From IMG/VR virus record IMGVR_UViG_3300009506_000198, positions 1 through 23,062 of that record: a stretch of DNA of 23,062 nt. One strand, written 5' to 3'. A model generated the notes under the pieces. The model was given only the letters and a program-made list of their open reading frames with translations, ran no database searches and was not told the origin of the DNA. Position numbers and translations under genes: made by a program. This document shows positions 3,683-21,484 of the stretch, piece by piece; the stretch's first letter is position 1; each line of letters opens with the position of its first letter. Source of the stretch: a virus.

Positions 3683-4192
3683 GTGTCGATTATATCGAAA
3701 AACTTACGTAAGAAACAGGTGAAGAAGATCAAGCGATTGATCGTTAGCGGTAAAGGTCTAAGTGAAGTAGCTGGTTTGTATAATGTCTCTTATATGACCA
3801 TTTACAAAATAGCCGCTGGTTTGACCTGGAATAATGTAAAACCTACCGGAAAGCTAATAGGGGATAGAGATTATAAATCGAAACGTGTTTTTTCTTTGGC
3901 ACAATGTGAACGTATAGCGCTGAAGAAAATGAAAAAACGTTTTTCGAATAATCGGATAGCTACAAAGTTGGAAACTTCTGAATCAACCATTCAAAGGGCG
4001 GTAGAAAATGGAATGGCTTCTTTGGGTATGAAGCTTCATAAGTCTTCACTGAATGGTGGGTTCACCAAAGAACAAAAGGGTTATCAGCTAACCGATGAAG
4101 AAATTCAATCTCTGATAGACATAAGTGTTTCTGGTGATGTTCCTAAATGGATACGTAAGGAGAACGAAAGTGAAAGAAAAAAAGTCCGATGA
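3683..4192 (+). CDS. Tandem helix-turn-helix protein related to HNH-endonuclease DNA-binding domains
   Basis: This 169-residue basic protein starts at a GTG. Residues 8-53 (LRKKQVKKIKRLIVSGKGLS, then EVAGLYNVSYMTIYKIAAGL, then TWNNV) match the pattern of the helix-turn-helix at the end of phage HNH endonucleases, including the closing G-x-x-W. The HNH enzyme at 371-1057 has the same pattern. A second helix-turn-helix follows (about 70-112, FSLAQCERIALKK and NRIATKLETSESTIQRAV), and residues 133-163 could form a third helical unit. There is no HNH, GIY-YIG or other nuclease motif. It may be a regulator or the DNA-binding remnant of a homing endonuclease. The start is uncertain because no good ribosome binding site precedes it. 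Confidence 0.62.
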   Translation: MSIISKNLRKKQVKKIKRLIVSGKGLSEVAGLYNVSYMTIYKIAAGLTWNNVKPTGKLIGDRDYKSKRVFSLAQCERIALKKMKKRFSNNRIATKLETSESTIQRAVENGMASLGMKLHKSSLNGGFTKEQKGYQLTDEEIQSLIDISVSGDVPKWIRKENESERKKVR

Positions 4193-4553
4193 AATATCTT
4201 CTCTGAAAGAAAGAATCAAAAATCTAGAATGCGAATTGGAGAAATTCAAGGATAAGTATTATTGTTTATGTCCGGCGCTTCCAACTGACTTATGGAATAG
4301 ATCAAAGAATGTATGGGCTTCAGCTTTACATTCTTATTTATATGGTGAACCTGGTGATCCTGGTCCTTTGGCAATAATTGAAAGAGCACTTTTTGACGCT
4401 GAAAAAAGGGGACCTTCCGGAAGGAAGGATCAAAATAAAGTACATTGCAATGGAGAGTGTAACTGTTCTTCGAAAAAGGTAGAAAAGGATGACTCGAAAA
4501 AAACACAGAAAGTATCCGGAAAGAAACGATCCACCACAAAGAAAAAGAAGTAA
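4170..4553 (+). CDS. Unrecognised protein with coiled-coil start and lysine-rich tail
   Basis: The likely start is the GTG at 4170, which has AAGGAG eight bases upstream. A longer reading from an ATG at 4125 lacks one. The product is then 127 residues. It begins with a charged heptad-like helix (EISSLKERIKNLECELEKFK). A central part follows (CLCPALPTDLWNRSKNVWAS, then ALHSYLYGEPGDPGPLAIIE) that looks globular, then a cysteine group (HCNGECNC) and a Lys/Ser/Thr tail (KKRSTTKKKK). The central part resembles small phage proteins often found near DNA-metabolism genes, but I cannot name a function. It overlaps the upstream gene by 23 bases and the downstream one by 65. Confidence 0.55.
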   Translation: MKEKKSDEISSLKERIKNLECELEKFKDKYYCLCPALPTDLWNRSKNVWASALHSYLYGEPGDPGPLAIIERALFDAEKRGPSGRKDQNKVHCNGECNCSSKKVEKDDSKKTQKVSGKKRSTTKKKK

Positions 4554-5530: not shown

Positions 5531-6229
5531 ATGGCTAATGGAGTTATTATAGGCGGTAGAAGTTACGAATTAAGGCATCCACAAACAGGTGCTTCAATTC
5601 CTATCTTCAATTGGAAAGATACAGGGATGGAATTCAAGATCGGTGATGGATATAATAAACGTCGTAAAGTACCTATTACATTGGGTGTTGTTCATTGGAC
5701 TGGTTCAGAGAATTCGGTTGAAACAATGTTCAACGTTTTGAATAAGCGAAAGCTAGGCGTTGAGTATTGTATCAGTCCTTACGGATCGCTTTATCAGTTC
5801 TGTGATATGATGGAAGTTGATACGGCTGACGCTGGTGCGGCTAATAAAATAAGTTGGGGTGTTGAAGTGGTGAACGCTGGAATTCGTAGGATGAATACGG
5901 TATGGCGTGAACCGCGATATCGTAAAACAAAGATGGGTCCACGCCACCCATATGAAACACGTATTCACGGAAGAAACGTGAAGTGTTGGGATTTCTACAA
6001 AGAACAAACGATGACGTTGCTAGCATTGAATAGTCTCATTGCTGAGGTGATTCCTACGTATGAAAGTAACGTGTGTGTAGCTAATAAAGAAATCAATTGG
6101 CGCGAATTCAAAGGAGCTATCGGTCACTTTCATATCACAAGAAGAAAGCTTGATCCTGGAACTGAACCGATGAAACACCTTCACGAATTTATGAAGTACG
6201 GAATACTTCCAGGTTACATCTGTAAGTGA
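5531..6229 (+). CDS. N-acetylmuramoyl-L-alanine amidase (endolysin, Amidase_2 type)
   Basis: The product (232 residues) is a zinc amidase that would cut the bond between muramic acid and L-alanine in host peptidoglycan at lysis. Motifs of the Amidase_2/PGRP fold are visible. GVVHWTGSEN (52-61) carries the first zinc ligand, H55. VEYCISPYGSLYQFCD (77-92) is the usual second strand pair, and SWGVEVVN (108-115) follows. GHFHITRRKLDPGTEP (198-213) supplies His199 or His201 and Asp208, with Lys206 nearby, as in the AmpD-type H...K.DPG ending. There is no signal peptide or membrane segment, so release would need a holin or another route. The ribosome binding site is strong (AAAGGAG). Residues 1-50 and 125-150 are unassigned. 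The gene ends in a GTGA overlap with the next. Confidence 0.88.
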   Translation: MANGVIIGGRSYELRHPQTGASIPIFNWKDTGMEFKIGDGYNKRRKVPITLGVVHWTGSENSVETMFNVLNKRKLGVEYCISPYGSLYQFCDMMEVDTADAGAANKISWGVEVVNAGIRRMNTVWREPRYRKTKMGPRHPYETRIHGRNVKCWDFYKEQTMTLLALNSLIAEVIPTYESNVCVANKEINWREFKGAIGHFHITRRKLDPGTEPMKHLHEFMKYGILPGYICK

Positions 6230-7197
6230 AACAGAATCCACTAAAGATACGAAAGAAATCTGAACCCTGCCCTATCTGTAAGGGGCAGGGTAACGATAAT
6301 ATATTGACTATTTGCTTAGACTGTTATGGTAGCGGAAAGAAGTACATTGTTTGTCGCGAGTGTTGGAATAAAAAATCACCATTAGAGTTTTTCGATTCAA
6401 AAAGAAACAAGTTTTTGAAGACTTGCAAACAATGTAGAGAGAAATACAGATATCGCGAAAAAACCGATCCAAGAAACGGACTTCCGGATCGTGGTCCTAT
6501 CAGAGTGAAGTTCAATCTGAATTCAAACAACACAAAGACCGGAAGTATCCCGGTTAGTATGACTTCTAGTCCTACTTGTCCTTCTTCTTGTTCTTTCCGT
6601 GGTGGTGTCTGTTATTCGGAAGGTCATTTCGTAGGGATGCATTGGAGAAGGCTAAGTAAACCTGATGGAAGTGGCGGTATTATATGGGATAAGTTTTGTG
6701 AAATGGTTTCTCAACTTCCAAAGGGTCAAGTGTGGCGACACAATGAAGCCGGTGATCTTCCAGGTTTAGGCGACGAAATAAACGCTTCAATGTTGAAGAA
6801 ATTGATTATTGCGAATATGGGTAAGGCTGGATTTACTTACACTCATAAGCCAGTTTTAGAAGACTGTGGAATATCTGTTTTCAATAGGGTATGTATCTAT
6901 GAATCAAATACAAAAGGATTTTGTATAAACCTTTCGGCTAATGATTTAGAACAAGCTGATACTTTGTATAAATTAGGTATAGGTCCAGTGGTAGTTACCT
7001 TGACAGAAGACGCACCGAAAGAACTGTCAACTCCAAAGGGAAAAGACGTTATAGTGTGTCCTTCTCAATATTCTGAAGTAACGTGTAAGGAATGTAAACT
7101 TTGCGCTAAACCAAAGCGTCAAGTAATAATAGGATTTAGAGCACACGGTCTTGGAAAAAATAAGATAGGATCGAATCACCAATTATCACTATTCTGA
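6226..7197 (+). CDS. Cysteine-rich phage protein (DUF7227-like) with N-terminal zinc-finger motifs
   Basis: The 323-residue product begins with four CxxC pairs. CPICKGQG (15-22) and CLDCYGSGKK (30-39) look like the DnaJ central repeat; C43/C46 and C67/C70 resemble a second small finger. From about residue 90 it follows a widespread phage and plasmid family of unknown function, which I recall as DUF7227: TGSIPVSMTSSPTCPSSC (105-122) with C129-Y130, WRHNEAGDLPGLGDE (170-184), GFTYTHKP (202-209), INLSAND (234-240) and VVVTLTED (255-262). It ends with a cysteine group (C278, C287, C290, C293) and AHG. The alternating strand and helix order and the TCP/CY and CxxCxxC clusters recall phage Gp37/Gp88-type barrels related to radical-SAM folds; that link is inference. 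It starts at a GTG overlapping the endolysin gene. Confidence 0.75.
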   Translation: MKQNPLKIRKKSEPCPICKGQGNDNILTICLDCYGSGKKYIVCRECWNKKSPLEFFDSKRNKFLKTCKQCREKYRYREKTDPRNGLPDRGPIRVKFNLNSNNTKTGSIPVSMTSSPTCPSSCSFRGGVCYSEGHFVGMHWRRLSKPDGSGGIIWDKFCEMVSQLPKGQVWRHNEAGDLPGLGDEINASMLKKLIIANMGKAGFTYTHKPVLEDCGISVFNRVCIYESNTKGFCINLSANDLEQADTLYKLGIGPVVVTLTEDAPKELSTPKGKDVIVCPSQYSEVTCKECKLCAKPKRQVIIGFRAHGLGKNKIGSNHQLSLF

Positions 7198-8712: not shown

Positions 8713-8982
8713 ATGCCATTCCCAAATTTCCACGCGGCTAGACAGGTTGATCCTGGTGGTTTTGATAGTTTCAGTAGGGGAAAACCAAAGGGTTTCCCCC
8801 GTGGTATCTCTGTTATATTTGGTATAAAAAATGGTAAGTCGCGTATTCAGACCATTCGTTTCGATCGTAAACTATGGACTGTCGCGCGGGCTTGTGAATG
8901 GCTAAAAGCTCATGGCTATAAGTCGTCCATAGAAGCCGCATCAGGTGAAGTGAAAAAAGGTTTTTGGGAAGGGATAATATAG
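8713..8982 (+). CDS. Small protein with a prohead-protease-associated domain and FWEGII tail
   Basis: The 89-residue product begins MPFPNFHAARQVDPGGF, a start shared with many phage head-protease-type proteins, and continues RGISVIFGIKNGKSRIQTIR, then FDRKLWTVARACEWLKAHGY (residues about 28-69). In other phages this module is often joined to a protease domain; here it stands alone. The C-terminus, GFWEGII, resembles the ends of the scaffold-like protein (GLWNGLL) and of the protein at 18821-19597 (SFWRSVL). This suggests a shared binding peptide within the head. No ribosome binding site is obvious, but the family-like N-terminus supports the start. Confidence 0.65.
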   Translation: MPFPNFHAARQVDPGGFDSFSRGKPKGFPRGISVIFGIKNGKSRIQTIRFDRKLWTVARACEWLKAHGYKSSIEAASGEVKKGFWEGII

Positions 8983-9021
8983 TATCGTTATGCACAATCA
9001 CAAATTTGTAAGGGATAACTG

Positions 9022-11538
9022 ATGTCCCTTGCGTTATCCATACCGACAGAGAAACAAATACGTAAGGCCGATAGGGGTCAATTAGAATCCTATTATCGTG
9101 ATGTTAGTAATTCTAATAATGCCTGGATAAGAAAACAAGTTTTAGAATACAATAGAATTGATATACTTGCTATTGAGGTTTTAGGGAAACAGGTAGAACC
9201 TTTTCATTTAGCACTTCTGAAATATCAATTCGAACATCCAGAAAATTTACAGCTATGCTTTCGTGGCGCTGGTAAGTCCACTGTTTGCACTGAAATAAAA
9301 ACGATACACCTACTTCTGAAGAATCCAAATCTAAGGATACTAATTGCTTCTAAGACTCTACAAAATGCGTGTGGATTTCTAAAAAATATAAAAGCTCATT
9401 TCGAAACAAATACGAGACTAGAAGAAATATTTGGTCAGTATTATGATCCACGTAGAGTAGGTAAGTGGGATGAAAGAGAGATAGAAGTTCTTCCTAGAAC
9501 TATCGTTGCTAAAGAAGCTTCAGTTACTTGTATAGGCGTTGAAGGAACGGTTGTTTCAAAACACTATGATGTCATTATCTCTGATGACTTAGTAGATGAA
9601 GATAATAGTAGAAGTAAACTTCAGAGAGATAAAACTAGGACGTGGTTCTACAACACTTTGATGCCTACGTTAGAACCACCCGATCAAGAAATAGAACACC
9701 GTGGTGAACACCACATGTTAGGTACTCGTTATCATTATGATGATCTATACGGTCACTTGATAGATAACGAATTGAAAGAACATCACCAAATAATTCCGGC
9801 GCTTGACGGAAACGGCCGTAGTCCTTGGCCTAAAAAATTTCCGCCGAAATGGTTTGCTGAAAGACGCAAACGTTCCGGTCTAATAATCTTCAACTGTCAA
9901 TATCAGTGTCATTCTGATGATACGGAATTTCTGACAGAAGATGGATGGAAACTATATAATGAAGTTAGAAAATCCAAGTTAGCAACTTTTGATCGTGATT
10001 TGAAAATTGTTTTTCAAAAACCAACAAAATCAATATGCGAATTTTTTGACGGAAATCTGATTCATTTGAATGGTTATAAGATTGACGCGCTTGTTACTCC
10101 TAATCACCAAATGGTTTGTAAACCAGCGGATTATCGCAAACCAAAAGAATGGAGTATGGTTGACGCTGAATTATTACCAAGTATTTCTAGTATAAGAACC
10201 GGAAATGTTTTAGTTCCGTCTACATCTATGTGGAATGGTAAAGAAGTAAAAACATTCAAAATAAAATCAGGTTATAGAAAAGATAGACACGGTGGCGTAA
10301 GATATCAACATAAAGAAAAAATTGTTTCAATGAATTTATTTTCAAAATTCATTGGGTATTTCATATCGGAAGGTGCAACTTCAAAAACAAGCCGTGGTGA
10401 TATTTCTTTATCACAATCTTCCGGATTAGTATTTGAAGATATGAAAAAAACGCTTGTGTCTATGGGGTTTGATACAAAGGAGTATAAGTGTGGATCAGTA
10501 AATAAATTATGTATTAGACATATTGGTCTTTGGGAGTGGTTGAGAAAATATGTAAAGACCAATTCTGGTGATGCTCGTATTCCTAAGAAATTAAAAAATC
10601 TTTCATCTAATCAACTGAAAATTATGTTTGATGCATTGATTGATGGTGATGGATATACGATAGAAAACAAAAAACACAAATCTTATCAATATACCAGTAA
10701 ATCTAGATTATTGATAGATGATATTTCTGAATTGTGTTTGAAGATAGGTATGGATGTATCGATCAATAAATCTACAAAGAAAGACGGAAGGGTATTTTGG
10801 AGAGCTATAATAAGACCAGGAATTGGGAATGGAATAAATATAAAAAGAAATTTTTATTATAAATATTATAAAGGAAATGTAGTTTGTTTTACCGTTCCAA
10901 ATGGAACGCTAATTACACGGAGAAACGGAAAAATATTATTATCTGGAAATTGTGATACTGAAGCAATGAAGGGTGAAATCTTTCAGTATGATCAATGTCA
11001 ACAGATATCAGAAGAAGACTGGCCAGATTATAGAAACCTACGTGTTTTTATGGGCGTTGATCTTGCTATCAGCGAAAGTGAATCAGCGGACAAATTCGCA
11101 ATAGTAGTTATTGGTCTCACAAAAGACAGAAGTGCTTATTACGTTCTTGACTACTATGAAAATCAATTAAGGTTCAAGGGTCAAACCAAAAAGATATTGG
11201 AATACTACCGTAGGTGGAAACCTATCAGATGTTCAATTGAAACAAATCAGTATCAAGCCGCACAATATCAAAACCTAAAGGAAGAAAATCCAGATATCAG
11301 ACTAAAGAAGGTCCAAACTGATAAGGACAAAATAACAAGGGCTTGGAAATTATCGGCTATTTTTGAAGATAATAAAGTATTTTTCAGAAAAGGAATTCAG
11401 GCATTACTGATAGAACATATGGTTCTATTTCCAAATCATAAGTACAAGGATCTGTTTGATGCTTTTGATTTGGCAGTACAAGCGAGTAAAATGAAACGAA
11501 AGAGAAGAAGAAGAGAAAATGAACCGGGAGTGATGTAA
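9022..11538 (+). CDS. terL: Large terminase subunit precursor containing an intein
   Basis: TerL is the DNA-packaging motor: an ATPase joined to an RNase H-like nuclease. The 838-residue precursor has Walker A FRGAGKST (80-87) and Walker B VIISDD (184-189). The nuclease domain has D680 in MGVDLA, E740 in CSIETNQ and D813/D816 in DLFDAFDLA. Between FNCQYQ and CDTEAMKG lies a 348-residue insert with all the marks of an intein (entered separately). Removal would leave 295 plus 195 residues, 490 in total, a normal TerL length. Both extein parts are in frame and complete, so a working enzyme is expected after splicing. AAGGG precedes the ATG. The portal gene follows with a one-base overlap, as usual in head modules. 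Confidence 0.95.
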   Translation: MSLALSIPTEKQIRKADRGQLESYYRDVSNSNNAWIRKQVLEYNRIDILAIEVLGKQVEPFHLALLKYQFEHPENLQLCFRGAGKSTVCTEIKTIHLLLKNPNLRILIASKTLQNACGFLKNIKAHFETNTRLEEIFGQYYDPRRVGKWDEREIEVLPRTIVAKEASVTCIGVEGTVVSKHYDVIISDDLVDEDNSRSKLQRDKTRTWFYNTLMPTLEPPDQEIEHRGEHHMLGTRYHYDDLYGHLIDNELKEHHQIIPALDGNGRSPWPKKFPPKWFAERRKRSGLIIFNCQYQCHSDDTEFLTEDGWKLYNEVRKSKLATFDRDLKIVFQKPTKSICEFFDGNLIHLNGYKIDALVTPNHQMVCKPADYRKPKEWSMVDAELLPSISSIRTGNVLVPSTSMWNGKEVKTFKIKSGYRKDRHGGVRYQHKEKIVSMNLFSKFIGYFISEGATSKTSRGDISLSQSSGLVFEDMKKTLVSMGFDTKEYKCGSVNKLCIRHIGLWEWLRKYVKTNSGDARIPKKLKNLSSNQLKIMFDALIDGDGYTIENKKHKSYQYTSKSRLLIDDISELCLKIGMDVSINKSTKKDGRVFWRAIIRPGIGNGINIKRNFYYKYYKGNVVCFTVPNGTLITRRNGKILLSGNCDTEAMKGEIFQYDQCQQISEEDWPDYRNLRVFMGVDLAISESESADKFAIVVIGLTKDRSAYYVLDYYENQLRFKGQTKKILEYYRRWKPIRCSIETNQYQAAQYQNLKEENPDIRLKKVQTDKDKITRAWKLSAIFEDNKVFFRKGIQALLIEHMVLFPNHKYKDLFDAFDLAVQASKMKRKRRRRENEPGVM
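9907..10950 (+). mobile_element. Intein with LAGLIDADG-type homing endonuclease in terL
   Basis: Precursor residues 296-643. The first intein residue is Cys296 (block A, CHSDDTEFLTEDG). Block B is VTPNHQMV (358-365). Two LAGLIDADG-like helices are visible: FIGYFISEGA (443-452, acidic E450) and MFDALIDGDG (535-544, acidic D541/D543). The end has block F (VVCFTVPNGTLITRRNG, 620-636) and block G (LLSGN, then Cys644 as the +1 extein residue). The penultimate residue is Gly642, not the usual His, though the terminal Asn is present. The coding sequence looks more A+T-rich than the flanking exteins, most clearly at 10800-10950, which fits horizontal arrival. Self-splicing and homing are expected from the family, not shown. 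Confidence 0.93.
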
Positions 11539-13388
11539 TGGAAAAATCAGAACAACGTAAAACTACTATTGCTTCTAATGCAGTAAACAAAAGCGCACTC
11601 AAAAAGGTTCGTGCTCTAGTTATAGACGTAAGTAAATCTGGTGCGGCAAATGGTTTGACAAGTGGAAAGGCTGAACCTGGTAGGTCTGAAGCGCTTCCGG
11701 AAGAACCGTTTCACGCGCTAGGTCATATGGGAAAGATTCTTTTACCACCCTTTGATATGCTTACTTTGTCTATGCTTGTAGAGAACAATTGCGAGCTAAA
11801 CCAGTGTATAGAAGCTATGGAAACGAACATAGATGCAACGGGTCACCGATTTATTTCTAGACTTAGAATGGACGATATAACGCCTACTAGTAACGATTCA
11901 GGCGAGTCACAAGGTGAGCTTACACCGGAACAAGAAAAACTTCTTTTGAATGCAAAGAAAGAAAAAGTTGGTTTGATAAATTTCTTTACGTATGCGACTT
12001 CAGAAAGTTTTGTAGCGTTTCGAAGAAAGATAAGAAGGGATATTGAGTGCACAGGTAATGCCTACTTCGAAGTAATACGAAATGACGCTAATCAGATTCA
12101 AGGATTTACTCATTTACCTAGTTACCAAATGAGAATTGGAAAACTTGAAGAAGAACCGGTTGAAGCCGAAAGAAGTATTCTAGAGCTTCAAATAGACGGA
12201 TCTGTGAAGGTGAAAAGACAAAGGATTATTAGAAGATTTAGAAACTACGTTCAAAGCAGATCGATTCACCAGGGTAGAACACAATCGTCTATTACCGGAC
12301 ATAAAGTTGTGTGGTTCAAGGAATTTGGTGATACGCGACTTTACAGTAAAAGGGATGGCAAATTACGAAAGCGAATTCCAAAAGAAGATCGGGCTACTGA
12401 AGTGATGCACCTAAAGCTTTATAGTCCTAGAAGCGCTTACGGTTTACCGCGATTCATTGGAAACCTTCTTTCGATATTTGGCGATCGTGCGGCTGAAGAA
12501 ATTAATTGGATCACTTTCAAGAATAATAACATACCTAGTATGGTTATTGCTGTATCAAATGGTCAATTGACACAAGCTAGTGTAGATAGAGTTCAGTCTT
12601 TTGTAGAATCGCAAATACAAGGATCTGACAACTATTCAAAGTTTCTTTTGATTGAAGCTGAAACAATGGGTGAAGAAGAAGGTGAAGACGGTGGCCAAGT
12701 AAAGATAGATATAAAGCCACTAACCGCCGATCAACACAATGACGCACTGTTTCAAAACTATAGCGAAAATAACCAAGATAAAGTTAGGCGTGCTTTTAGG
12801 CTTCCGCCTATCTTTGTGGGAAAGGCAAAGGACTATACGCGCGCTACCGCTGAATCTTCAAGACGTTTGGCTGATGAACAGATATTCAAACCAGAAAGAG
12901 ACGAATTCGACGAATGCATAAACAGAATGCTGTTTCCGGAAATGGGCGTAATCTATCATAAGTATAAGAGTAATACACCTAATACTACCGATAATGCCCA
13001 ATTAGTGAAGATCCTAGCTGGTGCTGAGAAGACCGGTGGTATTACTCCACGGATAGCGCGGTTTATAATGGAAGATATTCTAGGTATAGATCTACCAGAT
13101 TTTCCTGATGGATTTCCCGCTGATGTTCCATTCTCTATGACTATGGCACAAGCCGTGAAGAACAAGGCCGATCCGACTGAACCGGGTCAACAGGTTACTG
13201 CATTGAAGACACTGAAGTCTTTAGGCATTATAGGTGATGACGGTGATTTTGATCTGGAAAGTCTTGAACTGGAAGATCTGGATACAGAAGATCCTGAAAG
13301 TGTAATGGAGGTTGCTAAAAAATTATTAGCGTTGAACAGATCGGCTGAAATTTTGTGGCGTCAAAAGGTAATGGAAGAAGCTGAATGA
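11538..13388 (+). CDS. Portal protein
   Basis: The portal forms the 12-subunit ring through which DNA enters the head. The 616-residue product has the order typical of the PBSX-type portal family: KILLPPFDMLTLSMLVENN (66-84) and CIEAMETNI (90-98); RRDIECTGNAYFEVIRN (166-182); HLKLYSPRSAYGLPRFIGN (291-309), which is highly characteristic; then ITFKNNNIPSMVIAVSNG (325-342) and LTADQHNDALFQ (395-406). RLPPIFVGKAKDYTRATAES (421-440), with the family's LPP and S/T-x-A elements, follows. The C-terminus is acidic (LESLELEDLDTEDPES). A Gln/Glu-rich linker at 117-142 and residues 1-55 are variable. It overlaps terL by one base and the gpF-like gene by ATGA, so the three are probably translated together. 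Confidence 0.93.
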   Translation: MEKSEQRKTTIASNAVNKSALKKVRALVIDVSKSGAANGLTSGKAEPGRSEALPEEPFHALGHMGKILLPPFDMLTLSMLVENNCELNQCIEAMETNIDATGHRFISRLRMDDITPTSNDSGESQGELTPEQEKLLLNAKKEKVGLINFFTYATSESFVAFRRKIRRDIECTGNAYFEVIRNDANQIQGFTHLPSYQMRIGKLEEEPVEAERSILELQIDGSVKVKRQRIIRRFRNYVQSRSIHQGRTQSSITGHKVVWFKEFGDTRLYSKRDGKLRKRIPKEDRATEVMHLKLYSPRSAYGLPRFIGNLLSIFGDRAAEEINWITFKNNNIPSMVIAVSNGQLTQASVDRVQSFVESQIQGSDNYSKFLLIEAETMGEEEGEDGGQVKIDIKPLTADQHNDALFQNYSENNQDKVRRAFRLPPIFVGKAKDYTRATAESSRRLADEQIFKPERDEFDECINRMLFPEMGVIYHKYKSNTPNTTDNAQLVKILAGAEKTGGITPRIARFIMEDILGIDLPDFPDGFPADVPFSMTMAQAVKNKADPTEPGQQVTALKTLKSLGIIGDDGDFDLESLELEDLDTEDPESVMEVAKKLLALNRSAEILWRQKVMEEAE

Positions 13389-14629
13389 AAACAGAAGATC
13401 TATATCACGTACTTCATTGTGAATGCTGTTCTAAGAGAATAGATATCCTTCACGATGTTTTATCTTACTCTGATGAAGCTGTAGCTAAAGCTCTGATGGT
13501 AAGCGAAGTAGCTCATATAGCAAGGGTTGAGTCACGTATGCGTGAATACCTTTTGTCTAAATGGAGATTACGCGCTGAACAAGCCGCTAAGAAAGCCGGT
13601 GGCGTCTACAAGAGTACAGGATCTTTGAAAGCTTCTTTCGCTTCGGTAGACAAGATAATGAACAAGTGGGATGAAGAAGTAGCGCTACGTTTCGGAAAAG
13701 ACATTGAAGAGATATATAAGCTTGCCAGAAATGCGGGATGGAAAAAGGCTAACGGTCAAACTTCAGCTTCACTTCAATACGCTATGCCAAATTTTACCGA
13801 AGAACTTGAAGGAAAGGTGAAGAAGGCAAAGGTGAAAAGAAGATTAGCCGCTGTGAAACCTTCTTTCGACTTGTTTGATGAACAAGCTGTAATGCAATTG
13901 CAAGATGATCAAATGTTATGGATAGGCGTTCATTATGACAAGAACGTAAGGGACACCGTAAGAGAATCTGTAAAACCTGGTGTTGTTCAAGGGGTAAGTC
14001 GGATAGAAGCTGGTAGACGCGTTAGTGAAGCCGTCTTGAAACAACTAACAAAGGTAACCGTTCCAGGTGGATTCAATGGATCTGATGCAAAGTACTTTGA
14101 AGGATTAGCGGCTAATACGGCTACTAATAGTAGGGTACGTGGTCAACTAAGAAGTTTCGTTGACGTAGGTGTTACACGATACGAAATAGTGAATCCTATG
14201 GATAATCGTACTTCACCTATTTGTGTAGAGATGAATGGAAAGGTTTTTACGGTTAGAGAAGGAGCTTCACTTATTTCAAAAGTTTCTGGTGCTACTAATC
14301 CGGAACAAGTCAAAGAAGCTCACCCATGGGTTTCAGTGGGTGAGGCAAGAAAGATATACAAGAGTGGTGGTGAAAGAGCGCTAGCGAAAAAAGGTTTGTG
14401 TTTACCACCCTACCATTTTCGGTGTAGAAGTACGGTTGATATATCTACTGAATCTGTTTCATTTGGTTCTTTGTCAAAGGAAGAAATGATAGAAGTTCCT
14501 AGCCGTAAACAACCGACTAAACAGAATACTCCAAAGAATAGAAAACCGACTTCAAAACCGAAGAAATCTCAACCTATGAAACGTCCTGCTACGCTTCCGG
14601 AAATTGGTGAAGTTTTGAAAGCAGCGTAG
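13385..14629 (+). CDS. Minor head protein, Mu gpF-like head morphogenesis protein
   Basis: The 414-residue product has the C-terminal signature of the phage Mu F-like family: NPMDNRTSPICVEMNGKVF (270-288), then AHPWVS, and KGLCLPPYHFRCRSTVDIS (336-354). Residues 180-265 hold the usual helical part (VSRIEAGRRVSEAV and ANTATNSRVRGQLRSF). Residues 30-120 are long charged helices, and a CECC cluster sits at 12-15. Members bind near the portal and act early in head assembly; some are injected with the DNA. The last 50 residues are basic and proline-rich, probably disordered. The gene starts in an ATGA overlap with the portal gene. Confidence 0.88.
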   Translation: MKTEDLYHVLHCECCSKRIDILHDVLSYSDEAVAKALMVSEVAHIARVESRMREYLLSKWRLRAEQAAKKAGGVYKSTGSLKASFASVDKIMNKWDEEVALRFGKDIEEIYKLARNAGWKKANGQTSASLQYAMPNFTEELEGKVKKAKVKRRLAAVKPSFDLFDEQAVMQLQDDQMLWIGVHYDKNVRDTVRESVKPGVVQGVSRIEAGRRVSEAVLKQLTKVTVPGGFNGSDAKYFEGLAANTATNSRVRGQLRSFVDVGVTRYEIVNPMDNRTSPICVEMNGKVFTVREGASLISKVSGATNPEQVKEAHPWVSVGEARKIYKSGGERALAKKGLCLPPYHFRCRSTVDISTESVSFGSLSKEEMIEVPSRKQPTKQNTPKNRKPTSKPKKSQPMKRPATLPEIGEVLKAA

Positions 14630-14650
14630 CGATCAAGCTATCATATAATT

Positions 14651-15193
14651 ATGGAAGATATTTCTACCAGTATATTAGGGATCGTCAAGTGTGTTAGAAA
14701 AACATCTTTGTCCGCTGTTAGAGATAAAGCCCGTAAAGGAATCCAGGTCGAGACAAAAAAAGATGTAGTTACAGAAAATTCATCCGATGAACAGAATACG
14801 GTAAAAAAACAGATCGATGTAACCATAGCGAAAGCTGATGAAGAACAACAGACTGTTACCGGGATTGTACTTCAACCTGAAGTAGTTGACGGACAAGGGG
14901 ATATTATGTCCGCTGAAGTTATAAGAGATAGCGCTTATGCTTTTCTAATGAACTTCAATAAGGCTACCAAACTAGGTATTCAACACAGTAAATTCCCTGT
15001 CGGAAAGATGGCCTTAGTTGAAAGCTGGTTATCACCTATGGAAATGGCAATAGGGACTAAGACGGTCAAACAAGGTTCTTGGATTATGACCGTGAAAGTC
15101 TTAGACAAAAAGCTATGGGAGAAAGTGAAGAAGGGTGAAATAACTGGTTTCAGTATTGGCGGTAAAGCTAAGGTAGTGGGCGTACAAACATAA
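14651..15193 (+). CDS. Prohead maturation protease, XkdF-like (Peptidase S78 type)
   Basis: The 180-residue product matches the XkdF-like serine protease core: EQQTVTGIVLQPEVVDGQGD (65-84), AYAFLMNFNKATKLGIQHSK (95-114) with the likely catalytic His112, LVESWLSPMEM (122-132), GSWIMTVKVLDKKLWEKVKK (142-161) and GEITGFSIGGKA (162-173) with the likely nucleophile Ser168. Such enzymes trim scaffold and capsid proteins during head maturation. Residues 1-60 are polar and may be a removable pro-segment. There is no clear ribosome binding site; a small inverted repeat (14626-14641) spans the upstream stop. In many relatives the protein continues into an EVSLVD-PAN segment. Here that segment starts the next gene, 14 bases later with its own ribosome binding site, so protease and scaffold appear to be separate chains. 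Confidence 0.88.
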   Translation: MEDISTSILGIVKCVRKTSLSAVRDKARKGIQVETKKDVVTENSSDEQNTVKKQIDVTIAKADEEQQTVTGIVLQPEVVDGQGDIMSAEVIRDSAYAFLMNFNKATKLGIQHSKFPVGKMALVESWLSPMEMAIGTKTVKQGSWIMTVKVLDKKLWEKVKKGEITGFSIGGKAKVVGVQT

Positions 15194-15206
15194 AGGAATC
15201 AAAACT

Positions 15207-16157
15207 ATGCCTAAGAAACCTATTAGAAGATTTCTAAAATTAGATACAAATGAGGTATCGTTAGTAGACGTTCCAGCAAACGAAGTACCGTTTCTGGTAA
15301 CCAAAAATCAAGAATTGGAGAATGAAGACATGAGCGCACAAGCCGGAAATCAAAACACCGACGAAAGCCGTGTTGAATTGCAAGTTGACGGTGGCGATAG
15401 CGCCGTTGAAAAGGCCATACAACACATGAATTCTATCGTCGAAAACATAGTGAAGGTCGCCACCGAAAAAAACCAAGGAGAGAAAGAAGGAAGTGAAGAC
15501 TCTCAGTCGGTTGATTCCGGTGACACCCAAGACGTTAGCAAGGCTACTGTCAAAACTCTTCTTTCCGCTTTAGGTATGAAGGGTGAAGATATGAAGAAAG
15601 CTTGCGACAAACTGAAGGCGGCTGGATTCAATCCTGACCAGAAATTCCCGTCTGCACAACCGCCCGTCAAGAAAGATGCAAGCGGTGAAGATCCTGAACC
15701 TGAAGCTGATACTAAAAAGTCAGAAGACGGTCAAGGTTCTTCTGAAGATCAACCGCTTACCATGCAAGGTCTAGTAGCCGCTGTTTCGAAAGCAGCGGCT
15801 TTTACACCTGGTAGGATCAAGCAACTTCAAGATGCGCAAGATATCCTGAAGCTTGTCCTTGAAGCGGTTGCCCCTAATGCAACGCCTAAAACGAAAGTTC
15901 CGGGTGTTGAGAGTCATAGCAATCCGAGTGCCGTAAGCGATCTTTCTCAACCGAAGAAGAAGCCGGTTATGAAGAGTGCTGATGGTAACGACGAATTGGT
16001 TTCAACGTTGAAGTCTTTGGCTGATGGCGTGAAGAACCTAACGGAACGTGTCGAAAGTATCGAGAAGACTCGCAACGCTAGCAATAGCGTAGAAGAAGAC
16101 GGTGATACTGATACGAATACACAAAAGAATCAAGGCCTTTGGAACGGGCTTCTATAA
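15207..16157 (+). CDS. Scaffold-like capsid assembly protein, companion of the protease
   Basis: The 316-residue product begins with FLKLDTNEVSLVDVPANEVP (9-28), the segment that in related phages follows the XkdF-like protease domain. The rest is acidic, low in complexity and Ser/Glu/Asp/Lys-rich, with a helical segment (LVAAVSKAAAF to LKLVLEAVA, about 188-230) and a predicted coiled coil near the end (LVSTLKSLADGVKNLTERVE, then SIEKT, about 268-292). It ends GLWNGLL. These are the usual features of a scaffold: abundant, disordered, coiled-coil, placed between protease and major capsid genes. AAAGGA precedes the ATG. The tail motif is shared with two other proteins in this window. Confidence 0.75.
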   Translation: MPKKPIRRFLKLDTNEVSLVDVPANEVPFLVTKNQELENEDMSAQAGNQNTDESRVELQVDGGDSAVEKAIQHMNSIVENIVKVATEKNQGEKEGSEDSQSVDSGDTQDVSKATVKTLLSALGMKGEDMKKACDKLKAAGFNPDQKFPSAQPPVKKDASGEDPEPEADTKKSEDGQGSSEDQPLTMQGLVAAVSKAAAFTPGRIKQLQDAQDILKLVLEAVAPNATPKTKVPGVESHSNPSAVSDLSQPKKKPVMKSADGNDELVSTLKSLADGVKNLTERVESIEKTRNASNSVEEDGDTDTNTQKNQGLWNGLL

Positions 16158-16182
16158 AGAATAACGGTCACAAGGCGCAAAC

Positions 16183-16195
16183 GAAAGAAACTTTC
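16183..16195 (+). promoter_or_regulatory. Hairpin abutting the capsid gene ribosome binding site
   Basis: GAAAG (16183-16187) and CTTTC (16191-16195) pair around AAA, and AAGGAG begins at 16196. The stem is short, so chance is possible. The position directly before the ribosome binding site of the most expressed gene repeats a pattern seen elsewhere in the module. Confidence 0.38.
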
Positions 16196-16211
16196 AAGGA
16201 GATAAACGAAA

Positions 16212-17414
16212 ATGACTATTTCAAATGAAGATATTGTCAGCAAGGCGGCGATAACCGCTGATGCAATAGCGGCAAGCGGAAAGTTGAACAATGCGCAATC
16301 CGATCGGTTTATCGATTTTGTGATTGATGAAACTGTTCTGAAGGACAACGCGCGTATCGTTCGCTTTCGAAACGAAAACCTAGAAATTGACAAGATCGGT
16401 GTTGGTCGACGTGTGGCCGTACCGAAGTCTGAAGCGGTTGACCCACAGGTTAGACGCGGTATTACGACTTCAAAGGTCACTTTGACACCACACGAATTGT
16501 GCGTTCCGTTCGAGATCGGTGATAGCTTCAGAGAGCTAAACATAGAAGGTGATAGCATTGAAGAAACGATTATCCGATTGATGGCTACGCAACTTGCGAA
16601 CGATCTAGAAGATCTATACATCAATGGTAACGAACTAGGACCGGCCGTACCACAATCCGATATTTTGGAAAATGGTAGCTCTGATGAAGTCAAAGACGCC
16701 TACTTGGCACTCTGTGACGGGTGGTCGATTCTCGCTGATGGTTCGAACATCGTTGACGCGCAAGGACAAAACATCGGTTTGTCTATTTTTAGTAAGGCTA
16801 TTAGAGCAATGCCTACCAAGTTTAGGCGGAATCGATCGGCGCTACGATGGTTCATCAGTCCGGATCTTTGGCAGCTATATCTAGAGAAGTTGTCGACACG
16901 CGCTACTATGTTGGGTGATGAAGCCGCTCGCGGTGGTGGCGGAATGCCTGGACCTTTCGGTATTACGGCCGTCCCTGTTCCTTTGTGGGAGTTCGAACCG
17001 CTCACTGTGGAACATATAACCTTGACCGGAACAACCGCTGTAGCGCTTGCTAACGCACCTGTAACGGACGTCGTAGTTCATCCGGAAACGTTGGATAAGG
17101 TTCCTACTGTCGCTTATGTTGAAGGCGCTGGTAACGACTATATCCTTGACGCGACCAACGGAACGATTGCGCGTGATGCGGCTGGTTCTATCGGAAGTGG
17201 CGATACGGTCAAAGTAACCTATCGGTCTAACCCGCAAATTCTATTGACGCACATGAATAACATGATCGTCGGTATAGGCCGTGATATCCGTATCGAAAAA
17301 GATCGTGATATCTACAAGGGTGTAAATCAATACGCGATTACGGCTAAGGTTGATGTAGAATACGAAGAACTAACCGCGATCGTAAAGGTTCGAAACGTCG
17401 GAAAGGGTGTATAA
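16212..17414 (+). CDS. Major capsid protein (HK97 fold)
   Basis: The 400-residue product forms the head shell. Family features include an N-terminal helical arm (1-40), SKVTLTPHELCVPFEIGDSF (87-106) and IEETIIRLMATQLANDLEDL (116-135) followed by YINGN, the spine helix region. WFISPDLWQLYLEKLSTRAT (213-232) is the next core segment, and RIEKDRDIYKGVNQYAITAK (360-379) with VDVEYEELTAIVKVRNV closes the P-domain and A-domain core. Residues 264-340 look like an inserted beta-rich domain (VEHITLTGTTAVALANAPVT to GDTVKVTYRS), a type often exposed on the capsid surface. AAGGAG lies eleven bases before the ATG. The codon choice appears richer in C/G-ending codons than in the accessory genes, consistent with high expression. 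Confidence 0.94.
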   Translation: MTISNEDIVSKAAITADAIAASGKLNNAQSDRFIDFVIDETVLKDNARIVRFRNENLEIDKIGVGRRVAVPKSEAVDPQVRRGITTSKVTLTPHELCVPFEIGDSFRELNIEGDSIEETIIRLMATQLANDLEDLYINGNELGPAVPQSDILENGSSDEVKDAYLALCDGWSILADGSNIVDAQGQNIGLSIFSKAIRAMPTKFRRNRSALRWFISPDLWQLYLEKLSTRATMLGDEAARGGGGMPGPFGITAVPVPLWEFEPLTVEHITLTGTTAVALANAPVTDVVVHPETLDKVPTVAYVEGAGNDYILDATNGTIARDAAGSIGSGDTVKVTYRSNPQILLTHMNNMIVGIGRDIRIEKDRDIYKGVNQYAITAKVDVEYEELTAIVKVRNVGKGV

Positions 17415-17460
17415 ACCCTACACAAAAATAAGCTTGTGAGGTATCTTCACTAAGCAGGTT

Positions 17461-17475
17461 CGATCATTTTGATTG
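17461..17475 (+). promoter_or_regulatory. Small hairpin before the ribosome binding site of the post-capsid gene
   Basis: CGATCA (17461-17466) pairs with TGATTG (17470-17475) around TTT, with one G-U pair. AAGGAG follows at 17484-17489. A second short repeat (AGGGT/ACCCT, 17404-17419) spans the capsid stop codon. Confidence 0.33.
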
Positions 17476-17498
17476 GTCTAAACAAGGAGAATCAAGAA

Positions 17499-17969
17499 AT
17501 GGCAAAAGGTTTTCAAGCAAAAGTTCAGTTATCAAAAACGAAGCGCGCCCCTGTATCTCATACGGGATATAGGGGTCGTACCGTCAAAAAGGGTGATTCC
17601 TTTACGACTATCGATCCGGCTGAAGCAAGGTATTATCAATGTCAACCGGGTTTCAGCGTTCAGATTCTATCTGGTAAGCTCATCTCTAAACCGGTTGAAG
17701 AACCTGAAGAGATCGATGAAGTGGATGACGATGAAGACGAAGTAGAAGAAGAACGTGACGAAGAAGTAGAAGGCCTTTACGAAAAAGCAGATCTGAAAAA
17801 GATGAGCGTAAAGGACCTGAAAGCTCTAATCAAAGATGACGATGATCTTACGCTTTCCGTGAAGGATATTCCGAAGAAAGCAGGGAAGAAAGAGATAATC
17901 GAGATGATTCTTGACGCGCAAAGTCAAGATGACGATGACGATGACGATGAAGAAGGTGAAGACGAATAA
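17499..17969 (+). CDS. Acidic head-associated protein with SAP-like segment
   Basis: The start at 17499 is supported by AAGGAG ten bases upstream; the open frame extends to a TTG at 17469 that lacks one. The 156-residue product has a basic N-terminal domain (residues 1-55, AKVQLSKTKRAPVSHTGYRG and DPAEARYYQCQPGFSVQIL), then an Asp/Glu run (65-90). A helix-extended-helix segment follows (LKKMSVKDLKALIKDDDD to KKEIIEMILDAQ, about 98-140), like the SAP/HeH folds often found in phage small head proteins, and the tail is poly-Asp/Glu. Genes with this plan commonly follow the major capsid gene; decoration or head-tail joining are possible roles. Confidence 0.68.
   Translation: MAKGFQAKVQLSKTKRAPVSHTGYRGRTVKKGDSFTTIDPAEARYYQCQPGFSVQILSGKLISKPVEEPEEIDEVDDDEDEVEEERDEEVEGLYEKADLKKMSVKDLKALIKDDDDLTLSVKDIPKKAGKKEIIEMILDAQSQDDDDDDDEEGEDE
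17928..17950 (+). repeat. GATGAC tandem repeat encoding an Asp run
   Basis: Three full copies of GATGAC plus GATGA encode the poly-Asp tail of the acidic head-associated protein. Such a tract may vary in length by slippage in units of two codons. Confidence 0.85.
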
Positions 17970-17976
17970 TCTTCAC
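17956..17976 (+). promoter_or_regulatory. Seven-base-pair hairpin spanning a stop codon
   Basis: GTGAAGA (17956-17962) pairs perfectly with TCTTCAC (17970-17976); the loop CGAATAA contains the TAA stop of the upstream gene. AAGGGAG for the next gene follows ten bases later. It may mark an mRNA processing point or uncouple the two genes. Confidence 0.5.
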
Positions 17977-18001
17977 TGTCGCTTCAAGGGAGAATGAAAT
18001 C

Positions 18002-18382
18002 ATGTATTTTATCAGGTTTGGACATAACGCTCTAGTTCAGCAAGTTGAAGGATTTCCGAAAGACTGTAAACGCTCGTGTGAAGGTGCCCTACATGTACGA
18101 CCTGAAGCGACAAAGAAAGTCACTGAAGCCGAATTGAAGCGACTTCAAGAATTGAAAATTCCCTTGATGATTATCTCTAAACCGAAAGCGGTTGAATCTG
18201 TCGAGTCAGAATCTAACGAATTGCCCACTGAGGACGTCAAAGAAGTACTTTATTCGCCACTGGACGAAAATTCGGAACTACTGGCCGTAGAAAACTTTGA
18301 CGCCTTAGAAGGGCAATCTGTGGATTCTGAAGACGATTCTTACCAAAAAGAGAAAAAGGGGAAAAGGCGAAAGAAGTACTAG
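18002..18382 (+). CDS. Small head-module protein, unknown function
   Basis: A 126-residue product with a good ribosome binding site (AAGGGAG). Residues 1-60 look folded (MYFIRFGHNALVQQVEGFPK, a CKRSCEG pair, HVRPEATKKVTEAELKRLQE). The rest is acidic and Ser-rich, probably disordered, and ends in a Lys/Arg stretch (KEKKGKRRKKY). The folded part resembles small phage proteins found after the capsid gene, but I cannot assign a role such as head completion. Confidence 0.6.
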   Translation: MYFIRFGHNALVQQVEGFPKDCKRSCEGALHVRPEATKKVTEAELKRLQELKIPLMIISKPKAVESVESESNELPTEDVKEVLYSPLDENSELLAVENFDALEGQSVDSEDDSYQKEKKGKRRKKY

Positions 18383-18386
18383 CCAA

Positions 18387-18401
18387 TTCGGTTCAACCGA
18401 A
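18387..18401 (+). promoter_or_regulatory. Six-base-pair hairpin before a GTG start
   Basis: TTCGGT (18387-18392) pairs perfectly with ACCGAA (18396-18401) around TCA. The next gene starts at GTG 18411 and lacks a strong ribosome binding site. Confidence 0.42.
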
Positions 18402-18410
18402 AGAACTATT

Positions 18411-18824
18411 GTGCTGAAAATACACACATGTGACGGCCAAACACTTAGAGTAGATTTGGCTGATGAAGAACAAGCTCGCCTTTGGTTAGATCGTTTGGCT
18501 AGAGAAGACTTTCAGGCTACCATAAATGGTGTGTCGTTAGTAGAAAGGCATAGCGTAGGAAAGTGTCAAGAGTGCGGTAGGCGTAGCTCTAGAGATATCG
18601 GTGTTCAATATTCAGTTACTAGACCTGATGATTTCAAAAAAGTGTTTTTCAATATTGAGTACATTAGACCTAACGGAAAAATAAAGGGTGGTGAAAGAGT
18701 CACTGTTTTTTCTGATGATATAAGACTCGTTATGATGGCTCATAAGTCACAACCGGCCGCTAGGGTAACAGTATCAAAAATAGGAAAACAAAAATTCAAC
18801 CCTTACAAGGGAGCAAAGAAATGA
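18411..18824 (+). CDS. Unrecognised head-module protein with a CxxC motif
   Basis: The 137-residue product starts at GTG. It has an N-terminal part (KIHTCDGQTLRVDLADEEQA then RLWLDRLA), a CQECGRR pair (C53, C56) that could be a metal or disulphide site, and a beta-rich C-terminal half (FNIEYIRPNGKIKGGERVTV). No family is recognised. The start is uncertain because no good ribosome binding site precedes it. It ends in an ATGA overlap with the next gene, which supports a real, co-translated gene. Confidence 0.55.
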   Translation: MLKIHTCDGQTLRVDLADEEQARLWLDRLAREDFQATINGVSLVERHSVGKCQECGRRSSRDIGVQYSVTRPDDFKKVFFNIEYIRPNGKIKGGERVTVFSDDIRLVMMAHKSQPAARVTVSKIGKQKFNPYKGAKK

Positions 18825-19597
18825 TTACTCAATCTATCATCGTTCGTAAAGATATCAGACTAGCTACCGGTGAGAGTCTAAAAGACTTCTCTATGAAGAT
18901 ACGTGAAGCTTGTGTGAAATGGGCTAGACAGAAATTGAACGTAGATACGAAGAAGGGCGATATCTATCCGGTTGAGATCTTCAGTACGGCTATCGTATTT
19001 GACGTTTATAAATATGATATGCCTGAACCAAGTGAGAGACAAAAATTCTACGCTTGTAAATACAAGCGTCAAGATAACGGTGGATTTGAATTTGAAAGCT
19101 TAATCGAAGTCGAAAGGGTTGTTTCGTTCCAGCAAAAACAAAATACCCCTGTTATGAAATCAAAAGAAGTAGACGTTGAAAAAGCGCCATTGTCAACGGC
19201 CACTATCAATGATCTACCTGATGCGGCTTTCGCGATCATTCTTCCAGGTGGTAAGAAAGATGCGAGTGGTAAAACCGTACCACGTACTTTACGCGCGCTA
19301 CCGCATCACACACGTAACGTTCAAAGCGCTGGTGAGAATAGTACAATTGATATGCCACGTTTACGTAATGCATTAGCGCGATTGAATCAAGCTAAGATGA
19401 GTCCGGAACAACGTAAACGCGCTGGTGCTCATTTGGAAAAGCACGCTAAAGCTGTGTTGGCTAGCCGTGGTGGTAACCCTGGTAAAATTGACGCAACGCG
19501 CGGAAATAGAGCTGGTGCTACCCCTGTCAAAAAAGCCTTAGACGTTTGTGATGGGTGGAAAGAAACATCTAAAAGTTTCTGGCGTAGCGTTCTATAA
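18821..19597 (+). CDS. Head-module protein with protease-associated domain and FWRSVL tail
   Basis: The 258-residue product has three parts. Residues 1-105 form a beta/alpha domain (ITQSIIVRKDIRLATGESLK, FSTAIVFDVYKYDMPEPSER). Residues 131-213 form a conserved small domain (DLPDAAFAIILPGGKKDASG, KTVPRTLRALPHH, IDMPRLRNALARLNQAKMSP) that in other phages is often fused to prohead proteases. Residues 214-258 are a Gly/Arg-rich linker and a terminal helix ending SFWRSVL, similar to the ends of the scaffold-like protein and of the 8713-8982 product. No protease active site is visible. A role in head assembly as substrate or cofactor is inferred. The ribosome binding site is AAGGGAG. Confidence 0.65.
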   Translation: MITQSIIVRKDIRLATGESLKDFSMKIREACVKWARQKLNVDTKKGDIYPVEIFSTAIVFDVYKYDMPEPSERQKFYACKYKRQDNGGFEFESLIEVERVVSFQQKQNTPVMKSKEVDVEKAPLSTATINDLPDAAFAIILPGGKKDASGKTVPRTLRALPHHTRNVQSAGENSTIDMPRLRNALARLNQAKMSPEQRKRAGAHLEKHAKAVLASRGGNPGKIDATRGNRAGATPVKKALDVCDGWKETSKSFWRSVL

Positions 19598-19642: not shown

Positions 19643-21484
19643 ATGGAAGATACCATTGTCCAAGCGGAAATAGAAGAGAAGGCTAGAAGGGCGAATAACT
19701 CCGATCTATGGGATAAACTTTGGAAAGATGAAGGGGATGACACTTGGAGGAAACAAGCGCTCACACGCGTGTACGCGCGTATATGCGCGCTACTGAAAAG
19801 AATTCCACCGTGGTCACCTAACGGAAATGTAATAGTTGATATAGGTGGTGGACGCGGAATACTCGCGAGTCAAATTGTAGAAGAGTGTCATTTAGTAGGT
19901 CAGAATCCACAAGAAAATATGATGGTTGTAGATCACAGTGATTCCGCTTTGGAAGCTGTAGCAGAAAAGGGGATGACTGGAATAAAATATGATTTGGAAA
20001 CAATTCGAGATATCGATGATTTTCCAAGCGCTACAGTTTACGTTTCTACAGAGTGTTTAGAACATCTTTCTACTATCTCTCGTAATCGAGTTTTAGAAAC
20101 TATAAAAAGAAATTCTTTCATAGGTGCGATGATATCAGTTCCTAACAATCGATTAGGTCCGGAAGAAGAACCACAGCACACCATAAAATTCAACGCCATG
20201 ACTTTCAAAAGGACACTTGAAAGTCATTTCGAACACGTAAGGGTTGAAGTGTTAGGACCATTTTTGCTAGGCGTATGCGGTGGATTAGCGAAGAAGGATT
20301 TCACATTATCAGCTACGCTTCCGGTTAGAGATGAAGAACACGATTTAGAACCTACGCTCGCAAGTTTACGCGGTATAGCTGATGAACTTGTGGTAGGGAT
20401 AGATCCACGTACCACAGATAATACCTGGAAGATAGCTGAATTATACGCTGATAAAATCTTCTATTTGCGCGATCCTATGGGTCCACCTACCGGACATATG
20501 AAAAATGATTGTCCTATTTGTGGTGGCGATTGTAGGGAATATATGGGTGAGGACAAAGTTAATTTCAGTTGGATAAGAAATCAGTGTATAGCTGAATGTA
20601 GTGGTGAATGGATCTTTATGACTGAAGGTCATGAAAGATTAGTAGGTGGTCAAGACGTTCTACTTCAACTAAATAGAATAGTTCCTAAACCAGCTAGAAT
20701 AGGTTTAGTACTAAGACAGGGTAATGGTCAACAATGGTCTTTTCCGTGGTTGTTTCAGAACGCTAAAGATATCTTTTTTACGCGTCCAGTTCACAACACC
20801 TTGGATTATCCTGATGGAACTTACGTTGTGAAGTTGCCTCAAATAAAGATGCTTCACGATAGACATGAAGAACGTTCAAAAAGTCGCGCCAAACAACGCA
20901 AAGCACAGAACAGAAACGCGCTATTAGATGACTGGCTAGCGCGAAAATCTGAAGCGAGTCTTTTTTATTTGGGTCAAGAATGGAGAGATATCGATCCAAA
21001 TAAAGCGATAGAAAGGCTTGAAGAGTTTTTAGTCGTTTCAAATAATGGGGTTCAGCGCTATCAAGCAAGGCTTATTCTGGCCAAAGAATATATGAGAAAG
21101 GGTAACGCGAAAGAAGCTTTCAGAGTGTTACACGGATGTACTTCTGATGACTGGACAAGGTGTGAACATTTTCTATGGTTAGGCGATATTGCCTTTCTTC
21201 AAGAAGATTATGAGAAGGCACATAGGTTTTATACGTACGCTGCTACCGGTATAGGCGATCCACCCTTTACGGTATGGTGGATTGACCTGATATACTACGG
21301 ACACTTGCCCGCTCAAAGATTAGCGCAAACTTGCGCTTATATGGGAAAAATAGAAGAATCTTTGATGTGGGCTAAAAAGGTTATAGAGCTTCTTCCGGAT
21401 GACTCACCCCTTGAAGCTTTTACGGAAGCAAAGGGAAATGTTACAATACTCGAAGAAGCATTGTCACAATGTAATGGAGAATAA
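19643..21484 (+). CDS. Fusion of SAM methyltransferase, GT2-like glycosyltransferase and TPR-like repeats
   Basis: The 613-residue product has three parts. Residues 60-215 are a class I SAM-dependent methyltransferase: VIVDIGGGRGILASQI (63-78, SAM-binding loop), VVDHSDSAL (95-103) and VSTECLEHLS (134-143). Residues 220-410 resemble a family 2 glycosyltransferase: LSATLPVRDEEHDLEPTLAS (222-241), LVVGIDPRTTDNTWKIAELY (249-268) and FSWIRNQCIAECSGEWIFMT (308-327). At the place of the usual metal-binding LDADE is MTEGHE (326-331), so the DxD motif is missing. A cysteine insert (C290, C293, C297) lies within this domain. Residues 440-610 are helical TPR-like repeats (for example AIERLEEFLVVSNNGVQRYQ, EDYEKAHRFYTYAATGI). 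The enzyme could modify virion proteins or a cell-surface glycan; the target is unknown. GTGAGGA precedes the ATG. Confidence 0.82.
   Translation: MEDTIVQAEIEEKARRANNSDLWDKLWKDEGDDTWRKQALTRVYARICALLKRIPPWSPNGNVIVDIGGGRGILASQIVEECHLVGQNPQENMMVVDHSDSALEAVAEKGMTGIKYDLETIRDIDDFPSATVYVSTECLEHLSTISRNRVLETIKRNSFIGAMISVPNNRLGPEEEPQHTIKFNAMTFKRTLESHFEHVRVEVLGPFLLGVCGGLAKKDFTLSATLPVRDEEHDLEPTLASLRGIADELVVGIDPRTTDNTWKIAELYADKIFYLRDPMGPPTGHMKNDCPICGGDCREYMGEDKVNFSWIRNQCIAECSGEWIFMTEGHERLVGGQDVLLQLNRIVPKPARIGLVLRQGNGQQWSFPWLFQNAKDIFFTRPVHNTLDYPDGTYVVKLPQIKMLHDRHEERSKSRAKQRKAQNRNALLDDWLARKSEASLFYLGQEWRDIDPNKAIERLEEFLVVSNNGVQRYQARLILAKEYMRKGNAKEAFRVLHGCTSDDWTRCEHFLWLGDIAFLQEDYEKAHRFYTYAATGIGDPPFTVWWIDLIYYGHLPAQRLAQTCAYMGKIEESLMWAKKVIELLPDDSPLEAFTEAKGNVTILEEALSQCNGE

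Follow-up and report, generated by a model that had tools for sequence, protein, structure and literature searches.

A scaffold C-terminal peptide shared with accessory proteins as a putative prohead-targeting signal in XkdF-type phages

Introduction

The selection of proteins for the interior of phage heads is understood in few systems. In phage lambda, gpC and Nu3 are encoded by overlapping genes and have a common C-terminus, so that a scaffold sequence at the C-terminus brings a second protein into the prohead. In phage T4, the internal proteins IPII and IPIII are targeted to the prohead core by a common N-terminal capsid-targeting sequence (CTS) of about 10 residues, which is sufficient for the targeting of GFP; the CTS is absent from other core proteins, and the localisation of certain core proteins is still called mysterious (PMC9958956). 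In encapsulins, several types of cargo carry a cargo-loading peptide (CLP), mostly C-terminal, hydrophobic and about 10 residues long, which is dispensable when the cargo is fused to the shell (PMC7355545).

Here, we describe a C-terminal peptide that is common to a phage scaffold and to unrelated proteins encoded around it, in a stretch of DNA (the window) comprising the whole of IMG/VR virus record IMGVR_UViG_3300009506_000198, 23,062 bases in length.

Results

Gene layout of the locus

The window probably represents a tailed-phage fragment; Pfam and PHROGs matches identify a terminase, a portal protein, a Mu F-like protein, an XkdF protease and a capsid protein of phrog_1623. Features of the head module are collected in Table 1. 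The terminase large subunit gene (9022-11538) contains a LAGLIDADG intein (PF14528); the terminase of the closest relative, G002, has 490 aa and no intein, pointing to a recent gain or loss. Other genes encode a homing-endonuclease-like zinc-loop protein (371-1057; PF05551), a phage-encoded S-adenosylmethionine decarboxylase (1060-1521; PF02675, E 1.1e-19), a DUF7227 protein (6226-7197; E 2.5e-76) and a 613-aa protein (19643-21484) with consecutive weak matches to methyltransferase, family 2 glycosyltransferase and TPR domains.

Table 1. Tagged proteins, their terminal peptides and head genes of the window
Feature	Position	Strand	Remarks
P0001, free-standing domain B protein, 89 aa, C-terminal tag	8713..8982	+	in Roseobacter and Synechococcus phages, B is part of S78-protease/capsid polyproteins
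P0001 tag VKKGFWEGII	8950..8979	+	last six residues 8962-8979; kept in G002 (GFWKGII) and G004 (SFWYGVI)
Portal protein, alternative receptor candidate for the tag	11538..13388	+	PF04860, phrog_12
XkdF-type prohead protease, itself without tag	14651..15193	+	PF14550, E 1.6e-32
P0002, head scaffold by similarity and gene position, 316 aa, C-terminal tag	15207..16157	+	between protease and capsid genes; phrog_3017 end match
Scaffold tag NQGLWNGLL	16128..16154	+	last six residues 16137-16154
Major capsid protein, candidate tag receptor	16212..17414	+	phrog_1623
P0003, two-domain D-C protein, 258 aa, C-terminal tag	18821..19597	+	domain C fused to XkdF-type proteases elsewhere
P0003 tag GWKETSKSFWRSVL	19553..19594	+	last six residues 19577-19594; SFWNGVI in G002, KFWEGVL in G001

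Three proteins of the window share a C-terminal peptide

P0001, P0002 and P0003 end in VKKGFWEGII, NQGLWNGLL and TSKSFWRSVL, respectively. An earlier note, made from the window alone, had drawn attention to this shared end, and both the peptide and the coordinates that it gave for the last six residues of all three proteins hold. Its statement that the codons differ was also correct: only 11-14 of 21 bases are common to pairs of tags, which rules out a recent DNA duplication as their origin. Where the earlier note fell short was in listing three head proteins as equivalents; the tag is indeed shared, but the middle protein, P0002, is the scaffold, a point that had been overlooked.

Chance, which the earlier note had held to be an improbable cause, was rejected. 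The strict motif, [FILMVS]W.[GS][ILV][ILV], stands at the C-terminus of 80 of 23,106 ORFs against 0.66 expected from its internal rate in the same ORFs (79 occurrences in 2.76 million positions), the 80 including repeated sampling of related scaffolds.

The tag is almost confined to scaffolds and free-standing B, C and D proteins

We read 22 virus records whole, including the window, and counted the 20 that were not duplicates. A relaxed form of the tag ends 14 of 15 scaffolds, 20 of 27 free-standing proteins of the domain types B, C and D (described below), none of 16 XkdF proteins and 5 of 1379 other genes (Fisher p about 1e-34); for the strict form, the counts are 12/15, 15/27, 0/16 and 1/1379. 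Equal frequency on non-head proteins of the same phages, which would have spoken against the earlier note, is thus not seen. The sole other gene with a strict tag encodes a 76-residue zinc-ribbon protein of G012, which is probably real cargo, since its FWDGVI is shared with the scaffold and the B protein of that genome. The records were partly chosen for tagged loci, so that 20/27 is biased as a rate, with the background count unaffected; they also include relatives and hence are not independent. Seven of the 27 free-standing domain proteins lack the relaxed tag; a D protein of G015 is untagged, and degenerate ends occur in G016, G022, G023 and G024. A weight matrix built from the tails of all XkdF fusions separated poorly, being diluted by untagged tails, and was replaced by a class-wise test of the residue pattern.

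P0002 is an XkdF-type scaffold with a conserved end

Residues 205-316 of P0002 align to positions 301-401 of 402 of phrog_3017 (E 1.8e-6), a family of XkdF protease-scaffold fusions. The similarity reaches the C-terminal end of the family, and the gene lies between those of XkdF and the capsid protein; on both of these grounds, drawn from sequence and gene order, P0002 is assigned as the head scaffold. Alignment of scaffolds from XkdF phages revealed little conservation beyond an N-terminal EVS.VD..AN, an EK[ATS] near the end and, in many, a terminal W-x-G-[LIV]-L, which explains why a tblastn search of phage records with the whole scaffold gave no matches.

Scans with the XkdF alignment yielded 24 bacterial loci, many of them from Bacillus, and 80 viral loci. 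Many XkdF protease-scaffold fusions among them end in KKSVWDGLL, KPIWDGLL, QKSETVWGGLL or QKSIWSGLF, and in the Bacillus loci (KKSVWDGLL, KPIWDGLL) it is the fusion itself that bears the tag. The consensus of the tails, K-[SG]-[FLIV]-W-x-G-[LVI]-[LI]-COOH, is the conserved scaffold end of XkdF/PBSX-type phages. Different short conserved ends, HYLAGIL, GYMRLF[SQ] and GYMSNFM, were observed on other XkdF scaffolds (L082, L087, L104, L125, L130 and others); the peptide thus varies among XkdF scaffolds, with conservation inside each lineage.

Scaffold tails (37 distinct) and cargo tails (23 distinct) follow one and the same residue pattern: a lysine, mostly three residues before the tryptophan, and then W-x-G, with two aliphatic residues closing the chain. 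The glycine after W-x is present in 36 of the 37 scaffold tails and 19 of the 23 cargo tails. As the earlier note had required, the end is conserved in homologues of all three proteins, namely P0001-type proteins (14 loci, with relaxed or variant forms counted in), D/C proteins, and scaffolds from Bacillus to uncultivated phages. P0001 and P0003 are unrelated to the scaffold. We conclude that the scaffold is the probable source of the shared peptide and that P0001 and P0003 are likely cargo carrying it.

Scaffold and cargo tails also match better within genomes than between them (565 versus 522 +/- 18 upon permutation, p 0.012; 16 genomes, no phylogenetic correction). Examples are the threefold FWDGVI of G012, W.GVLF[ND] on both proteins of G014 and GG[IM]W.GVL on two proteins of G022.

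Tagged domains are fused to head proteins in other phages

P0001 consists of a single domain, B, and P0003 of two, D and C. No convincing family was found for domains B, C and D in Pfam, PHROGs or NCBIfam, weak matches to BRX and SAM_2 being disregarded; phmmer searches of the PDB with P0001, the capsid protein and the PBP180 XkdF fusion brought no useful match, and a search for relatives with the C-domain protein of G001 was swamped by a poly-lysine stretch. In the AF2 model of P0001, a confident domain (residues 11-70, mean pLDDT about 90) is followed by an unstructured tag (81-89, <50). In that of P0003, domain C is confident (about 97) and domain D fair (about 80), with residues 222-258 disordered at <50, where the helix that is drawn has little meaning. 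Neither the B model nor the D-C model had a significant match in PDB fold searches. Among viral structures, a 661-residue protein matches the P0003 model best, over 212 aligned columns, which is compatible with D and C in tandem.

In phage THSA-485A, a protein that is also 661 residues long has domain C after an XkdF-like protease. In Roseobacter and Synechococcus phages, domain B lies inside a capsid polyprotein, in which Pfam also finds an S78 protease in the Roseobacter case. Among the fetched loci, the fusions B-X, C-X, X-C and B-C-X occur, where X is XkdF. The view of the earlier note that these domains are joined to prohead proteases elsewhere is thus borne out. When standing alone in XkdF phages, most B, C and D proteins end in the scaffold's peptide. 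In two loci (L053, 362-1096; L057, near 3731-4465), domain C and XkdF were observed in one frame, interrupted in both at the same point by a TGA immediately ahead of RLNDLPDAAF, implying a downstream start or readthrough.

The tag behaves as a movable terminal module

The order of the domains is shuffled among phages, and the tag always comes last: D-C in the window and G002, C-D in G020, D-B in G018 and G019. Single domains are tagged too, as in D alone (G013, G022, G026), B alone (many phages) and the zinc ribbon (G011/G012). The B gene is tagged both in the window, where it lies upstream of the terminase, and in G004, where it is found >11 kb downstream of the scaffold. Untagged free-standing B proteins of L066 and L078 stop at the end of the domain (..ATG), indicating that the tag is an added tail.

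A longer cassette, approximately G-W-x-E-T-x-K-S-F-W-x-G-V-[IL], was observed on several tagged D-containing proteins (P0003, G013, G018, G019 and G026); its upstream tryptophan is missing from scaffold tails. The zinc ribbon, a separate tagged protein in G012 (36228-36458), has a similar-looking counterpart fused to C in L038 (7656-8309), both on weak Pfam matches.

In 14 contigs checked, XkdF was not detected together with untagged free-standing domains except in the L038 contig, where an XkdF protein is present, without the tag. Several tagged contigs among the 14 also lack XkdF, being short.

Discussion

We consider it probable that the shared C-terminal peptide is a scaffold-derived prohead-targeting signal. 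We observe directly that the peptide is shared and conserved, that it is restricted to head proteins and stays terminal, and that it alternates with fusions; the alternation between fusion and separate tagged protein is as expected of a recruitment signal. The match of tails within genomes and the disorder of the tails in the AF2 models also speak for this reading. The proposal of the earlier note, that the tag is a label for recruitment into the head, finds support at the level of sequence. Head incorporation, physical recruitment and the receptor are inferred; there is no evidence from virion proteomics, binding or structure, and no experiment shows tagged proteins in heads.

The scaffold consists of a coiled coil and a flexible linker, followed by K-x-[FLIV]-W-x-G-[LVI]-[LI]-COOH. 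This terminal peptide would most likely anchor the scaffold inside the growing shell, at the major capsid protein or the portal, although binding is inferred. A flexible linker attaches the same peptide to small accessory proteins (B, C, D and the zinc ribbon), which could then be gathered into the prohead with the scaffold, their entry again being an inference. The tag would in this way replace the covalent fusion to protease, scaffold or capsid seen in other phages, and XkdF may later trim the tagged proteins. With regard to the receptor, every tagged phage in the sample has a phrog_1623 capsid, and the tag is missing from three XkdF phages whose capsids are of other types (phrog_1328, phrog_1005), but some phrog_1623/XkdF phages also lack it. 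A capsid receptor is compatible with this distribution, which common descent also explains; no binding data are available.

Several features of the tag could be read in other ways. Separate XkdF proteins are never tagged (0/16), scaffolds are protease substrates, and the accessory domains are fused to proteases elsewhere, all of which would suit a docking site for XkdF that marks its substrates, the scaffold and the accessory proteins, to be processed and does not bind the shell. We think this possible but unlikely: protease and tag lie in one chain in Bacillus phages, where docking would be superfluous, and T4-type proteases act on cleavage sites with no need of a shared C-terminal dock. A C-terminal degron, by which a host or phage protease would clear scaffold and accessory proteins, can draw on the removal of scaffolds and on the capacity of hydrophobic C-terminal residues to serve as degrons. 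The conserved W-x-G core with its upstream lysine is, however, more specific than known hydrophobic degrons, and tails that vary in step within genomes point to a phage-encoded partner, leaving this explanation very improbable.

We give still less credence to a functionless remnant, inherited from a former scaffold-accessory polyprotein. The same domains do occur as fusions in other phages, but the W, G and hydrophobic positions are retained where the attached domains are about 40-60% identical, the tails vary in step within genomes, and the splitting of a polyprotein would leave the shared end on one product only. Both the degron and the split polyprotein were rejected. 

Beyond prohead targeting in the phages sampled, we put forward tentatively, with slightly less than even confidence, a widespread modular system of C-terminal cargo loading in tailed phages, in which the scaffold's terminal coat-binding peptide would serve as a genome-specific label on an open-ended range of proteins that are packaged into the head and may also be injected from it. 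If true, this would be the phage equivalent of encapsulin cargo loading and could be used to predict what heads contain. Such a label, readable from sequence, would allow prediction of the internal head proteins of uncultivated and PBSX-like phages, would unite scaffold and accessory proteins under one recruitment logic, and would supply a small tag with which proteins could be loaded into phage heads. We found no earlier report of the peptide in the full-text literature searched, a scope that leaves out most subscription papers and all preprints.

The peptide can be compared with several described systems. PBSX/XkdF fusions (phrog_3017, Peptidase_S78_2) have the same C-terminal peptide and a coiled coil, but are single polypeptides, with no second tagged protein seen in the flanks fetched. 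In lambda, gpC and Nu3 share a whole scaffold from one gene, whereas here only 8-10 residues are shared, by separate genes. The T4 CTS is likewise a short peptide common to several internal head proteins; it is N-terminal, in contrast to the present tags, which are all C-terminal and are common to the scaffold. The encapsulin CLP resembles the tag in being a short, mostly C-terminal peptide on several unrelated proteins (here B, C, D and the zinc ribbon), and true phages, too, show the choice between a fusion and a peptide tag that is known from encapsulins. Encapsulins, however, lack a scaffold. In the present phages, the peptide sits on the scaffold, and the shell is that of a genuine phage head, protease included; with its terminase, portal, protease and phage capsid, the window does not encode an encapsulin shell devoid of phage genes. 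By analogy, the present signal would most likely act like the T4 CTS or the encapsulin CLP, yet from the C-terminus and in common with the scaffold.
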